From: a virus
Strand: one strand, 5' to 3'
DNA: 28,323 nt
Virus record (IMG/VR): IMGVR_UViG_3300043449_001342
Span: 1 to 28,323 of that record
Shown here: positions 9,542-14,773 of the stretch, in pieces
Numbering within the stretch: position 1 is the first letter of the stretch
Layout: every line of letters begins with the position of its first letter
Position numbers and translations under genes: made by a program
The notes under the pieces: model-generated
The model's input: the letters and a program-made list of their open reading frames with translations, nothing else
What the model was told of the DNA's origin: nothing
Databases searched by the model: none

Positions 9542-10653
9542 TGGCTGGACCCTATGATCTCTGGCGCAACAACTACGACGTTCCAGGCCCACAAGATCCG
9601 CGCCGCGTGGATGAAGTGCGCGCCTCACCCGCACCTCGATGGGAAGAGTTGCTGTCCGGGCGGACTGTGTCGGCCATCAACCAGAACCCGCTGTTCCAGG
9701 CGCTTGGACGGTTCCTGAGCAAACCATCCACCGGCATCAGCGAGACGACGCGCCTATCCCCGATTGATTATCGCCCCACACCATCAGAGCCCGGCGCGCT
9801 GGATCGCTTGCCGGGGACGGTTCAAGAAGGCATTGGCGGGCTTGCACTGTTGGCGAACTTCCTGGCACCGGGCGTGAAGCTGCCGATGCGGGCAATGAGC
9901 ACGGCAGAAGCGCGCGGCGGAACTATTCCTGCGGCGGCATCAAAGACAGAAACGCTCGCCGGCTCTGGTCATCAGGCAGATTTGCCAGCACCCAATCAGC
10001 AGCCGTCTGCCCCGATGGCAGGCGGTCTGCTGGACCATATGCGCGACGCGTCTTCGGGTCCACAAGCACTGGCGCCCCGTAACTTGACGCAGCATGATCC
10101 GTTGTCAAACGCATTGCCGACTCCCGAAAAGTTGGGCTTTGACACAAGTAATCGTTGGTATCATGTCACCGACCGCGATTTCAAGGCGTTTAAGAAGACG
10201 CCGCCGACTCGGAACACAGATCCAGACGCTGCATTTTTGGCGAAACTTGGCACCTGGGTTTCGGACAGTCCGGCGACTGTCGCCCAGCAAACAGGGATGG
10301 TCAAAGACGGCTCTCGCACTATTCCTCTTTACGCTCGCGGCGATCTTTACGATGTGGGGTCGCTTGCTGAACTATGGCAAGCCGCCCAGAGGCCAGGTTT
10401 CAAAAAGAAATTACAGGAGCAGGGCTATTCCGGCATCCGCATGATTGACACGGAGTTCGGTGGAAAGGGAAGCCCTGTGCATAGTGCGGTAATTTTTGAG
10501 CCCAAAAATTTACGCTCGCCGAATGCACAATTCGACCCGCAGAAATCTGGAAGCGCCAATATCATGGCCGGCTTGGCCGGGAGTGCAACGTTGTCGCCCG
10601 CCGTTCTAAATGCGTTAGAGCGCGCACTCTCAGAGCAGGAGCCCCAGCTATGA
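9541..10653 (+). CDS. Phage protein with ADP-ribosyltransferase-like C-terminal domain
   Basis: 370 residues, TGATG overlap with the endolysin. Residues 1-115 carry LFQALGRFLSKPS and a hydrophobic LALLANFLAPGVKLPMRA. Residues 120-200 are a low-complexity linker. Residues 205-333 show RWYHVTDRDFKAF, GTWVSDSPATVAQQ, IPLYARGDLYDVG, QGYSGIRM, and AVIFEPKNLRSPNAQFDP. This order (H-x-T strand, S-D-S helix, 'GYDGI' turn, 'vvF-P-nIRS' end) is that of ART-like domains found in phage polyvalent and tail proteins. The catalytic glutamate cannot be assigned with certainty. It may modify host proteins with ADP-ribose early in infection, or be an inactive structural derivative. Confidence 0.65.
   Translation: MAGPYDLWRNNYDVPGPQDPRRVDEVRASPAPRWEELLSGRTVSAINQNPLFQALGRFLSKPSTGISETTRLSPIDYRPTPSEPGALDRLPGTVQEGIGGLALLANFLAPGVKLPMRAMSTAEARGGTIPAAASKTETLAGSGHQADLPAPNQQPSAPMAGGLLDHMRDASSGPQALAPRNLTQHDPLSNALPTPEKLGFDTSNRWYHVTDRDFKAFKKTPPTRNTDPDAAFLAKLGTWVSDSPATVAQQTGMVKDGSRTIPLYARGDLYDVGSLAELWQAAQRPGFKKKLQEQGYSGIRMIDTEFGGKGSPVHSAVIFEPKNLRSPNAQFDPQKSGSANIMAGLAGSATLSPAVLNALERALSEQEPQL
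9923..10114 (-). CDS. Candidate antisense-nested small protein
   Basis: 63 residues, read on the minus strand inside the linker-coding part of the ADP-ribosyltransferase-like gene. The ATG at 10114 has a good ribosome site (GGGAG, six bases before ATG). The product begins MRLTTDHAASSYGAPVLVD and continues AYGPADRLPSGQTAADWV, a composition unlike a random shadow frame. From memory, short proteins starting with '(K/R)LTTDHxASSYGxPVLV' occur in several bacteria, but I cannot verify this here. The plus-strand protein is low-complexity exactly over this stretch, which leaves room for a second gene. No promoter was identified. Confidence 0.4.
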   Translation of the reverse strand: MRLTTDHAASSYGAPVLVDPKTRRAYGPADRLPSGQTAADWVLANLPDDQSRRAFLSLMPPQE

Positions 10654-10898
10654 CCATGTTCCTCACATCCATCATTGCCCGCTTTGGGCTGCACCTTGCC
10701 ATCGCGGCGGGTGTGCTGGTGACGTATGCAGCGTGGCACAAGAGAGTTGAGACGAAGGCCGTTGCGGCCGAACGCGTGCGCGTCGAAACAACGGGAAACA
10801 AGATCGATGCCGCCGCCCAAAAGAAACGCGAACGCGTTGAGAAGGCTCCAGCGTCTGAGGTTGACGCTGCTTTGCGCAAGTATTGCCGTGACTGTTAG
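10650..10898 (+). CDS. Putative i-spanin (Rz-like)
   Basis: 82 residues, ATGA overlap with the preceding gene. One N-terminal transmembrane helix (about residues 8-27, ARFGLHLAIAAGVLVTYAAW) is followed by a charged helical periplasmic part with Lys/Arg/Glu, ending in CRDC. An inner-membrane protein of this layout, just after an endolysin and with an overlapping lipoprotein frame, is the standard i-spanin arrangement. Spanins fuse inner and outer membranes in the last step of lysis. It is shorter than classical Rz (about 150 residues). The identification rests on topology and gene order. Confidence 0.7.
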   Translation: MTMFLTSIIARFGLHLAIAAGVLVTYAAWHKRVETKAVAAERVRVETTGNKIDAAAQKKRERVEKAPASEVDAALRKYCRDC

Positions 10899-11085
10899 TG
10901 TTAGCGGGTGCGGGATCTGGCAGGAGCCGAAGCCGGCCGGCACCGCCGCCCAGCTCTGCCGCAGCTGGAAAGAGGTCGGCATCCGCAAGGCTGACAAGCT
11001 CACCACCGACACCGCCCGCGAAATCGTCGCCAACAACGAGGCGCGCCCAGAATGGTGCGGCAAAATCGCGAAGGCGGCCCCATGA
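10807..11085 (+). CDS. Putative o-spanin lipoprotein (Rz1-like), overlapping the i-spanin
   Basis: 92 residues from the ATG at 10807, in the +1 frame relative to the i-spanin and starting inside it. A basic N-terminus (RRLQRLRL) leads into a hydrophobic core and a lipobox VSGC, with the lipidated Cys at residue 35. The mature part (SWKEVGIRKADKLTTDTAREIV) matches the style of o-spanin-like lipoproteins in alphaproteobacterial phages. The frame is open back to 10726, but the signal-peptide logic favours this or a slightly later start. It would sit in the outer membrane and partner the i-spanin. Confidence 0.7.
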   Translation: MPPPKRNANALRRLQRLRLTLLCASIAVTVSVSGCGIWQEPKPAGTAAQLCRSWKEVGIRKADKLTTDTAREIVANNEARPEWCGKIAKAAP

Positions 11086-11322
11086 ATGCACAGCAGCTCG
11101 AACGGCTCGCAGCCGCCATCGCAGAAGAACGAAATCGACCGCGAGCACCGGATCACGGTCATCGAGATGCACGCCGAGCAGCATCAGAAATCCATCGACC
11201 AGCACCACGAGCGTATATCGTATCTGGAACGGGCAGTGCAGGGGCTGATCTACGCGACGGCGGTCTTGGCGGGCATCAAGTCCGACACCATTCTCGACCT
11301 CATTTCGCGGGCGGGCAAATGA
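11086..11322 (+). CDS. Small coiled-coil membrane protein, lysis-associated
   Basis: 78 residues, starting immediately after the o-spanin stop. Residues 15-48 are a charged, heptad-like helix (NEIDREHRITVIEMHAEQHQ) and residues 51-70 are moderately hydrophobic (AVQGLIYATAVLAGI), giving a coiled coil plus one membrane segment, as in XhlA/hemolysin-type phage proteins. GC at third codon positions is high in this frame. The competing frame opened by the overlapping ATG at 11082 has poor third-position GC. It could assist holin action; the exact role is unknown. Confidence 0.6.
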   Translation: MHSSSNGSQPPSQKNEIDREHRITVIEMHAEQHQKSIDQHHERISYLERAVQGLIYATAVLAGIKSDTILDLISRAGK

Positions 11323-11405
11323 AAAACAGGATGGTATTTCATTCTGTGGCGGCGGTCGGGATCTTCGTGGCCGCCTTAGCTTTTCAAGTCGTTAGCCGGA
11401 TGTGA
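11319..11405 (+). CDS. 28-residue membrane peptide
   Basis: ATGA-coupled to the preceding gene. The product starts MKNRMVFHSVAAVG and continues IFVAALAFQVVSRM, i.e. a two-residue basic start and a single hydrophobic segment covering nearly the whole peptide. It is the last gene of the late operon. Such a tiny peptide could be a pinholin-like or holin-modulating factor, but it is also shorter than known holins. Coding status rests on coupling and hydrophobic composition. Confidence 0.45.
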   Translation: MKNRMVFHSVAAVGIFVAALAFQVVSRM

Positions 11406-11435
11406 TCGGGTTTCCCCGTGTGTTGATTGAGACGC

Positions 11436-11607
11436 TGACGACATAGGGCGTAGGTGGCTCCGACTGGTGGTCAGTTATTTCCCGGCAGGGACCACTCCGC
11501 GCGACGGGTTTGGACCCCGTTTCTGCTTGCGCTTCGTCAGGCGCTAGGTGCCGGGCCAGATGTGGTCTGCACATCGGAGCCATGACCACCCACGCCCTAT
11601 GTCGTCA
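11436..11607. ncRNA. Candidate structured RNA / long imperfect palindrome at a convergent junction
   Basis: A 16-base arm, T plus GACGACATAGGGCGT at 11436-11451, is perfectly complementary to 11592-11607. The helix continues with GGTGG (11453-11457) against CCACC (11586-11590) and CTCCGA (11458-11463) against TCGGAG (11574-11579). Inside are possible hairpins 11467-11472/11490-11495, 11504-11508/11516-11520 and 11559-11564/11570-11575. CCCGGC (11481-11486) also matches GCCGGG (11550-11555), which could form a nested helix or a pseudoknot with the first hairpin. It starts 30 bases after the last late-gene stop and, on the other strand, ends 9 bases after the stop of the opposing gene. No uridine tract follows on either strand, so a simple terminator is not an adequate explanation. 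Strand is undetermined. Confidence 0.45.
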
Positions 11608-11616
11608 ATCCGGCCT

Positions 11617-11889
11617 TTATCGCTTGACCGATTTCTTGTTCGTGCTGTCGATCGCGACAGCGTGACCGTCAATCACTGATGCGGCACTGAAACGCCGCCA
11701 GCAACCCGGCGCATAAGCAGCAACAATAATTTCGCTGCCTGCTGTGGCGGTTTCGTTTTCCTTCCGAAACCCCCCATACAACATCAATGCGCCATCGCGG
11801 CACTCCGCGCGATCAGCAAAAACCATGTCCGTCTCTGTTGCCATTTCGACGGCAAAGAACTTTGATCCGTAGCTGTTGGCGCGGCTCAT
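11617..11889 (-). CDS. Small phage protein, function unknown
   Basis: 90 residues, ATG at 11889. The N-terminus NSYGSKFFAVEMATETDMVF and GALMLYGGFRKE look like a compact beta-rich fold; no known catalytic motif is seen. It is the second of a two-gene minus-strand unit. Its start region shares the 12-base sequence GCCAGACAGATG with the upstream gene's start, so the two translation initiation sites are near-copies. Its stop lies next to the palindromic element of the convergent junction. Confidence 0.7.
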   Translation of the reverse strand: MSRANSYGSKFFAVEMATETDMVFADRAECRDGALMLYGGFRKENETATAGSEIIVAAYAPGCWRRFSAASVIDGHAVAIDSTNKKSVKR

Positions 11890-11899
11890 CTGTCTGGCC

Positions 11900-12103
11900 T
11901 CATTTGGTGTTGTCGTCTAATGCGTTTCTGGTGACGCGGACTGCCGCCTCAACGCTTGAAAAACATCCCTCGACGGTGCGCAACTTTTCTTCTAGGCGCT
12001 TGATCTCGTCGGCCGCCTCGTACATCAAATCCGCGGACTTCACGCCTCCCTCGTCTTTACAAAACCGAGCTAGGCCGCGAAGCCTTTCGACAAGGTGTTC
12101 CAT
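11900..12103 (-). CDS. Small helical protein, function unknown
   Basis: 67 residues from the ATG at 12103, preceded by AGGAG. The frame is open to a TTG at 12148, but that codon lies in the predicted -10 element, so the ATG is preferred. The product is a charged helical protein (VERLRGLARFCKDE, then AADEIKRLEEKLRTVEGCFS) likely to form a coiled coil. First gene of a two-gene unit expressed from the promoter at 12148-12176. Confidence 0.7.
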   Translation of the reverse strand: MEHLVERLRGLARFCKDEGGVKSADLMYEAADEIKRLEEKLRTVEGCFSSVEAAVRVTRNALDDNTK

Positions 12104-13759: not shown

Positions 13760-14773
13760 TTATTTCCGCCGCCGCCGCAGAGCCACGACCGTGCCGGAGG
13801 GGCTGGTCGTCATCGATGGCAACCGAGCCAGTGCCTCGTCCACCTCGCTGCTGGTCACATGGCGATATTTTTCGGTCACGGTGATCGAGGAGTGGCCGAG
13901 CGCGTCCTTGATGACCTTGAGGTCTGCCCCGGCCTTCCCCAATCTGGTCGCGAACGTGTGGCGCAAGTCATGCCACCGGATCGTGGCCACGCCCGCCCGA
14001 ACCCTGGCCGCCTCGAACTCCTTCCGGTAATTCGTGACGTCGAACACGTAGGCGCCCTCGCGCGGCTGGTTGGCCAGCACCTCGGCTGCATCCGCCCCGA
14101 GCTTGACCTCGCGCTCGTATCCACCTTTTACGGTCACTACGACGGATGAGGGTTTGACCTTGTCCCAGGTCAGCCCAAACGCTTCCGTTTTACGCAGCCC
14201 CGTCGCCAGCAGGAACAGCACCACGGCCCGGATGTGGGGCGGAAGCTCGGCAAGGAGCCGCATGGCCTGGTCGTCTTCAAGGTACTGAACCCGGTCGCGC
14301 TCTTTCGTCTTGAGCTGGCGCCAGTTGATGACCTTAACGTCCATCTCCCAGGATTTGCCGGCGCGGTTGTGAACGCCTTGCAGCGCGGTCACGGTGCGGT
14401 TGATGGAGATCTCGCCAATGGCGCGCTGGCGCATGGCGGCAATCATGTCGACGATGTGCTTGGTCGATAATTCTGCAAGAGGCAGATCCTTGGAAATGTA
14501 TTGGGTGACGTAGAGCAGCCAGCGCTGGACGTTGCGCGCGTCTCTCAGGCGCCGGCCGTGCTCTAACCAGTACCGGCCGGCTGCTTGGTCCAGCGTAAAT
14601 TCCGGCGTCCGCTTCGGATGGGCGGTCTCGCGGAGAAGTTGATCTCGGAGCGTGCGCTCGAATTTCTTGGCATCTGCGCTGGAGCTTGTGCCAGTGCTGC
14701 GGACAACCCGCACGCCTTTGACGACGATCTCGGTTTGCCAGAACGGGGAGCCGGGGCGCTTGAAGAGAGACAT
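13760..14773 (-). CDS. int: Tyrosine-recombinase integrase
   Basis: 337 residues. Residues 1-50 form the small N-terminal arm-binding-type domain (MSLFKRPGSPFWQTEI), about 60-150 the core-binding helical domain, and 160-337 the catalytic domain. The active-site residues are visible: R194 (ATGLRKTEAFGL), K216 (VKGGYERE), H268 and R271 (WHDLRHTFATRL), H294 (LGHSSITVT) and nucleophile Y303 (EKYRHV). It catalyses recombination between attP, about 100 bases past its stop, and a host tRNA-Lys gene. It is the last gene of a long minus-strand operon and its start lies inside the excisionase-like frame. Confidence 0.95.
   Translation of the reverse strand: MSLFKRPGSPFWQTEIVVKGVRVVRSTGTSSSADAKKFERTLRDQLLRETAHPKRTPEFTLDQAAGRYWLEHGRRLRDARNVQRWLLYVTQYISKDLPLAELSTKHIVDMIAAMRQRAIGEISINRTVTALQGVHNRAGKSWEMDVKVINWRQLKTKERDRVQYLEDDQAMRLLAELPPHIRAVVLFLLATGLRKTEAFGLTWDKVKPSSVVVTVKGGYEREVKLGADAAEVLANQPREGAYVFDVTNYRKEFEAARVRAGVATIRWHDLRHTFATRLGKAGADLKVIKDALGHSSITVTEKYRHVTSSEVDEALARLPSMTTSPSGTVVALRRRRK

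Follow-up and report, generated by a model that had tools for sequence, protein, structure and literature searches.

The element and its surroundings

The window, i.e. the whole 28,323-nt stretch of viral DNA that was analysed (positions 1 to 28,323 of IMG/VR record IMGVR_UViG_3300043449_001342), carries a structured element between two convergent gene sets, as the initial annotation had pointed out. Spanin genes and a small ORF lie to its left on the plus strand, small ORFs and the integrase gene to its right on the minus strand (Table 1). The spanins form a nested i-spanin/o-spanin pair (10650-11082, plus) with overlapping reading frames and weak PHROG Rz-like matches. The 90-aa gene adjoining the element (11617-11889, minus) shares 87 % identity with its homologue in L126, a related phage contig of 64.6 kb, where the latter lies ~7 kb from the endolysin gene, on the same strand and without the RNA element.

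No T-tract follows the element, as had been claimed, and a terminator scan was negative there; neither a tRNA nor a tmRNA was detected at this site. Searching the window against Rfam at gathering score gave no match, in agreement with the earlier statement that no known RNA family could be recognised, and permissive thresholds yielded nothing but a chance lncRNA match. Eight loci that carry relatives were likewise without an Rfam 15 match at gathering threshold where the element lies.

On either strand, the element folds much better than its dinucleotide shuffles (z-scores of -4.3 for plus and -4.8 for minus, equalled by 0 of 200 shuffles), so that folding alone could not decide between them; comparative data identified the minus strand as the RNA strand. 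This strand, and the hammerhead ribozyme that it carries, had been missed by the initial annotation. The 16-bp perfect terminal helix that it described is present (11436-11451, TGACGACATAGGGCGT, pairing with 11592-11607, ACGCCCTATGTCGTCA), and its six-base match between 11481-11486 and 11550-11555 (CCCGGC/GCCGGG on the plus strand) corresponds exactly to PK2, which co-varies across the family. The three hairpins, on the other hand, were partly an artefact of nested folding, the actual fold being a double pseudoknot plus a hammerhead.

Table 1. Features of the RNA element and the nearby integrase gene, in window coordinates
Feature	Position	Strand	Support or remark
Whole RNA element	11436-11607 (172 nt)	minus (RNA strand)	homologues in unrelated phages, plasmids and prophages; covariation
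P1, 5' arm of terminal helix	11592-11607	minus	pairs with 11436-11451; 16 bp, perfect
Conserved 5' motif NCGUGGG (GCGUGGG in the window)	11589-11595	minus	family alignments
P2, 5' arm	11584-11588	minus	pairs with 11563-11567; 5/5 pairs co-vary, 99 % of cells paired
PK1, 5' strand, in P2 loop	11574-11581	minus	pairs with 11456-11463; double-sided changes in 8/8 pairs, 84 % of cells paired
P2, 3' arm	11563-11567	minus	5/5 pairs co-vary, 99 % of cells paired
PK3, two additional pairs, GG	11556-11557	minus	11557-11488 and 11556-11489; GC, UA and AU types, 91 % of cells paired; via mutual information
PK2, 5' strand, CCCGGC	11550-11555	minus	pairs with 11481-11486; 100 % of cells paired, 2 pairs double-sided
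Hammerhead ribozyme, type I	11499-11544	minus	core intact in the window copy; in relatives, Rfam hammerhead models score below the gathering threshold
Hammerhead stem I	11541-11544 with 11499-11502	minus	co-varies
Hammerhead CUGACGA (C3 U4 G5 A6 N G8 A9 core)	11540-11534	minus	core criterion met
Hammerhead stem II	11533-11524	minus	A.A at 10.1-11.1, then G-C pairs
Hammerhead GAA (G12 A13 A14)	11523-11521	minus	criterion met
Hammerhead stem III	11516-11520 with 11504-11508	minus	pairs; A11520-U11504 = A15.1-U16.1
H17 (C11503)	11503	minus	not-G criterion met
Predicted self-cleavage site, 3' of C11503	11502-11503	minus	core position only, no experimental data
P4, 5' arm	11491-11495	minus	pairs with 11467-11471; 99.7 % of cells paired, 3 pairs double-sided
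PK2, 3' strand, GCCGGG	11481-11486	minus	100 % of cells paired, 2 pairs double-sided
Conserved A-rich loop (AAAUAACUG in the window, GAAUAACUG in most members)	11472-11480	minus	AAUAACUG part required by the search pattern
P4, 3' arm	11467-11471	minus	99.7 % of cells paired, 3 pairs double-sided
PK1, 3' strand	11456-11463	minus	double-sided changes in 8/8 pairs, 84 % of cells paired
P1, 3' arm of terminal helix	11436-11451	minus	16 bp, perfect
Integrase gene	13760-14773	minus	

Identification of the family and fold of the RNA

A DNA search with window positions 11300-11900 matched no phage record. An exact scan of viral contigs for a 14-base arm returned 111 stretches, in none of which the second arm matched, and these were discarded as chance. 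Using the element alone as query at permissive E-values, short intergenic matches were obtained in an Enterobacter autographivirus, in Arthrobacter phages and in eleven Acinetobacter plasmids. Lining these up by eye revealed the same blocks on the window minus strand, a hammerhead core, and the two halves swapped in the Enterobacter phage and the plasmids.

The family was then described by the degenerate pattern GGAGTN7GCN2GGNAATAACTG, which occurs in at least 119 stretches of IMG/VR viral contigs. When ribozyme-free forms were scanned for separately, 20 were found, 16 of them present in the earlier sample as well; this overlap puts the total for the first pattern at roughly 150 matches in the viral contig collection. 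Invariance at the positions required by the pattern, including the AAUAACUG part of the A-rich loop, is partly due to construction. This does not apply to the helices, the hammerhead, the NCGUGGG motif or the CAUCU block, none of which the pattern contained.

The alignments show a core of ~95-105 nt in which two pseudoknots, P2/PK1 and P4/PK2, interlock and the single-stranded motifs are nearly invariant. Counted on 71 distinct sequences, this pseudoknotted structure had standard pairs in 94.4 % of 2038 pair cells and double-sided changes in 22 of 30 pairs, i.e. 472 double-change cells versus 137±10 after shuffling. When partners were slid by 1-3 columns as a control, pairing fell to 35-50 %. 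Mutual information, unprompted, recovered P2, P4, PK2 and hammerhead stem I, as well as the two pairs of PK3. The shuffles take no account of kinship among the sequences; given the slid controls and the spread over hosts, chance is untenable as the source of the covariation. Absence of covariation had been named beforehand as a result that would refute the element; the score obtained was 0.579, compared with 0.153 for shuffled and 0.06-0.14 for slid partners. Such strong covariation, together with homologues across phages, supports the original description of an undescribed structured element and probable phage RNA. We consider its structure near certain, its function being inferred.

Beyond the core, a P1 of at least 8 bp is found in 31 of the 82 members with standard order of the halves, where ~4 would be expected with shuffled partners. 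Ordinary folding scans miss the family because its core is pseudoknotted: members without the ribozyme give nested-folding z-scores near 0.

Two further features of the alignments were recorded. The base N before CGUGGG equals the base N' before CGYGGAGU in more than 90 % of members (bases 11595 and 11502 of the window, minus strand) among them 24 of the 25 without a ribozyme; in the latter group, the residue immediately 5' of N' is as a rule the complement of both. The N and N' strands appear to alternate in binding one common partner, or to form a triple; regular antiparallel pairing of the two NCGUGG-like motifs was rejected as unsupported, N being equal to N' rather than its complement. 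An additional hairpin (GGTGGGG..CCCCACC) separates PK2 from the hammerhead in some members (L155, L140).

The hammerhead domain is well preserved among relatives: G12 and A15.1-U16.1 are retained in 64 of 65 distinct domains and the CUGAnGA core in ~62, H17 being C in 51, A in 13 and U in one. Rfam hammerhead models score relatives at 26.5 and 28.7 bits, under the gathering score. The A.A at 10.1-11.1 of the window copy is common to about a third of members and could slow cleavage. The bacterial hammerhead survey of 2011 rejected 10.1-11.1 mispairs (PMC3088659), which may partly explain why the hammerheads of this family were overlooked. Phage PaP3, listed there as hosting a hammerhead, does not contain the element. 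About 30 % of members have no ribozyme and keep the whole core, so cleavage is not essential everywhere. Ribozyme-free members lie in larger contigs (median of 67 kb versus 40 kb, p=0.008), which is only a hint as contigs can be fragments.

Distribution, permutation and movement of the element

Copies were found in phages of Enterobacter, Arthrobacter, Mycobacterium, Microcystis and Pectobacterium, in Acinetobacter plasmids and in E. coli prophages. The element is nearly absent from cellular genomes outside prophages: in 257 Gb of such sequence (84,980 species genomes), the family pattern had eight matches. Three of them are real according to inspection and covariance model (L252, Burkholderia anthina; L253, a Rhizobiales bin; L255, a Gemmatimonadales bin), the Rhizobiales copy being the closest to the window, and the other five (L251, L254, L256-L258) were rejected as chance on the same grounds. 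A covariance model of the B half (R1) retrieved only known copies from 538 whole genomes (249 of the Burkholderia family and 289 of Alphaproteobacteria). There is usually one copy per genome. A viral contig of 4160 b (G006/L234) contains two tandem copies ~170 nt apart. Close relatives of the window phage (L115; L116/L126) have no element at the homologous site and no model match in their whole records; it is entirely missing from two near relatives.

No description of the core, nor of four strings of its sequence, was found in ~5.4 million open-licence PMC papers, a scope that leaves out preprints (bioRxiv) and subscription journals. The RNA belongs to no Rfam 15 family and was previously uncatalogued, though an earlier description in preprints or subscription journals cannot be excluded.

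The B half comes first in 15 of the ~100 members that were parsed, and these belong to three or more groups of phages or plasmids. These circularly permuted forms keep all helices: a hairpin closes the B-A junction, the A-B junction opens into an outer helix and PK1 still forms. Judging from this anatomy, the ribozyme would define the 5' end of the RNA in the permuted order and would nick the RNA between its two halves in the standard one; both forms would leave an identical free 5' end, N'CGYGGAGU. The eleven Acinetobacter plasmids, which are mobilizable, carry a permuted copy adjoining a tRNA-Asn gene and an IS3 transposase gene (e.g. NZ_CP028569, 2779-2822, L130); hammerhead position 12 of the latter copy is A instead of G, and its ribozyme may be inactive.

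In its permuted enteric form, the element shows 95-98 % identity between a virulent Enterobacter phage and copies in 15 of 5426 complete E. coli genomes. It is placed between the capsid and tail tube genes in the phage, in the late leader of a lambdoid prophage (between Q and the holin gene S), or between portal and terminase genes. The left flanks of the enteric cassette diverge sharply at AACAGGTAAGAGCA, and in lambda identical flanks and arms enclose a 72-nt hairpin in place of the ~205-nt unit. As judged from these sequence comparisons, the element moves between unrelated phages as a cassette. The lambda hairpin (44,790-44,861, L293) follows tR', as it does in P22-like phages, and its arms are exactly those of the E. 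coli prophage cassette (counterpart slot at 5890-6330 of L292); the slot seems to swap RNA cargo.

A tRNA gene lies within 300 nt at 25 of 97 loci, on the same strand in all 25, versus 3 of 2220 random placements in control contigs. The element is often tightly packed with tRNA genes. In Microcystis phage Mwe-JY26, 16 annotated tRNAs surround it, and further tRNA-linked copies occur in Mycobacterium phages Gaia and phiGD24-3, Pectobacterium phage Pappous and an Acinetobacter plasmid; the window copy has no adjacent tRNA. No recurring neighbour protein was found among the element loci. A P1 of at least 8 bp is present in none of 9 tRNA-abutting members and in 31 of 73 others (p=0.012, post hoc), which is consistent with two excision routes; this split rests on nine members and on a cut-off chosen post hoc.

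Proposed function, alternatives and known systems

We think it likely that the element encodes a phage-dedicated, trans-acting double-pseudoknot RNA of a hitherto unknown class that travels like phage tRNAs, has permuted gene forms and uses an exchangeable hammerhead to make or nick its own ends. That it represents a new class of structured RNA borne by phages and plasmids, i.e. a mobile, self-processing gene for a trans-acting small RNA (an "RNA moron"), is a reading towards which we lean with somewhat less than firm confidence. Both start from an observed conserved fold, strand, hammerhead core, permutation, mobility and tRNA linkage. Transcription, excision, processing, self-cleavage and action in trans are inferred or predicted, no expression data being available, and the trans role rests solely on inference from location and conservation.

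A stand-alone small RNA is favoured on three grounds: conservation of the core does not depend on the presence of the ribozyme, no gene accompanies it as a partner, and it lies packed in between tRNAs; among the functions suggested initially, that of a small RNA fits best. An RNA moron would be excised from longer transcripts. Beside tRNAs, it would be freed by tRNA maturation, and away from them the terminal helix P1, an RNase III-type duplex, would direct its release. Where present, the hammerhead would self-cut between the halves, which PK1, PK2 and P1 would keep together. The freed double-pseudoknot particle would act in trans during the lytic cycle, most plausibly by aiding phage translation or by weakening a host factor or a defence directed at stable RNA, its partner being unknown.

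The chief rival, which we regard as possible although rather unlikely, is a cis-acting element of mRNA processing or stability, whose ribozyme cuts its own polycistronic transcript and whose pseudoknots protect the ends or tune neighbouring genes. The location of the element in the Enterobacter phage, flanked by capsid and tail genes, and in the Q-holin S late leader of the lambdoid prophage would suit such a role, as would the frequent closeness of bacterial hammerheads to phage genes (PMC3088659). However, the neighbouring gene is never recurrent, the tight packing between tRNAs is not accounted for, ~30 % of members have a complete core and no ribozyme, and the near-invariant unpaired bases exceed what a roadblock needs. 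The suggestion of a processed 3' end of the late transcript is incorrect for the window copy, because its RNA strand runs against the late genes.

A mobile palindrome, i.e. a MITE-like DNA element or insertion-sequence remnant with the arms as terminal inverted repeats, had also been proposed, and half of this idea survives: the element does appear to move between unrelated phages, outer arms included, and the window arms form a perfect inverted repeat. As an insertion element it is very improbable, because double-sided changes preserve RNA helices and even pseudoknots (covariation alone already weighs strongly against it), arm sequences are unrelated between members, genomes usually hold a single copy, no transposase family is attached and no target duplication was seen by eye at the window ends. 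We give still less credit to an elaborate bidirectional terminator, which the site between convergent gene sets might suggest, as the T-tract is absent, relatives lie inside co-directional operons and tRNA arrays, and termination needs neither conserved pseudoknots nor a hammerhead. The least tenable reading, a packaging RNA comparable to phi29 pRNA, agrees with a phage-borne RNA of similar length but is already contradicted by occurrences in plasmids, tRNA arrays and unrelated phages, both small and very large, with unrelated gene neighbourhoods, and by its absence from near relatives that share the endolysin region with the window phage.

Large conserved RNAs of no known class are, to our knowledge, rare, and this one extends across phages of Proteobacteria, Actinobacteria and Cyanobacteria as well as Acinetobacter plasmids. 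If the trans-acting RNA proposed here is correct, it offers phage hammerheads of unknown role a biological context, namely maturation of a conserved RNA, often beside tRNAs. The family also adds a natural case of circular permutation for a pseudoknotted RNA, and the E. coli prophages that carry it provide a directly testable system.

Among known systems, the tRNA-linked members resemble T4 rnaC and rnaD, small stable phage RNAs annotated within a tRNA gene cluster, for which we know of no function. The R1 family model had no match in T4 69,000-74,000, where these genes lie. The present family reopens, in a form that can be tested, the old question of what the non-tRNA stable RNAs of phage tRNA clusters do. 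The lambda post-tR' hairpin of the Q-S late leader has the outer arms and genomic slot of the E. coli copies, but its interior is a simple 72-nt hairpin without the conserved core. HRIMA motifs (PMC10085705), reported almost only from metatranscriptomes, were considered and are a different thing. Theta (HDV-like) ribozymes also are self-cleaving domains abutting phage tRNAs, whose 3' ends they have been proposed to trim (PMC10879173); the ribozyme of the present family differs in fold and sits inside a separate conserved RNA, ribozyme-free members of which abut tRNAs too. With type I hammerheads (RF00163, RF02275 and relatives; PMC3088659) the family shares CUGAnGA, GAAA, A15.1-U16.1, a cleavable H17 and three stems, with the open end at stem I. 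About a third of its members have the 10.1-11.1 mispair that the rule of the 2011 survey would discard (PMC3088659), and its ribozyme, unlike a type I hammerhead as such, is an optional insert in a larger double-pseudoknot RNA that also exists without it.
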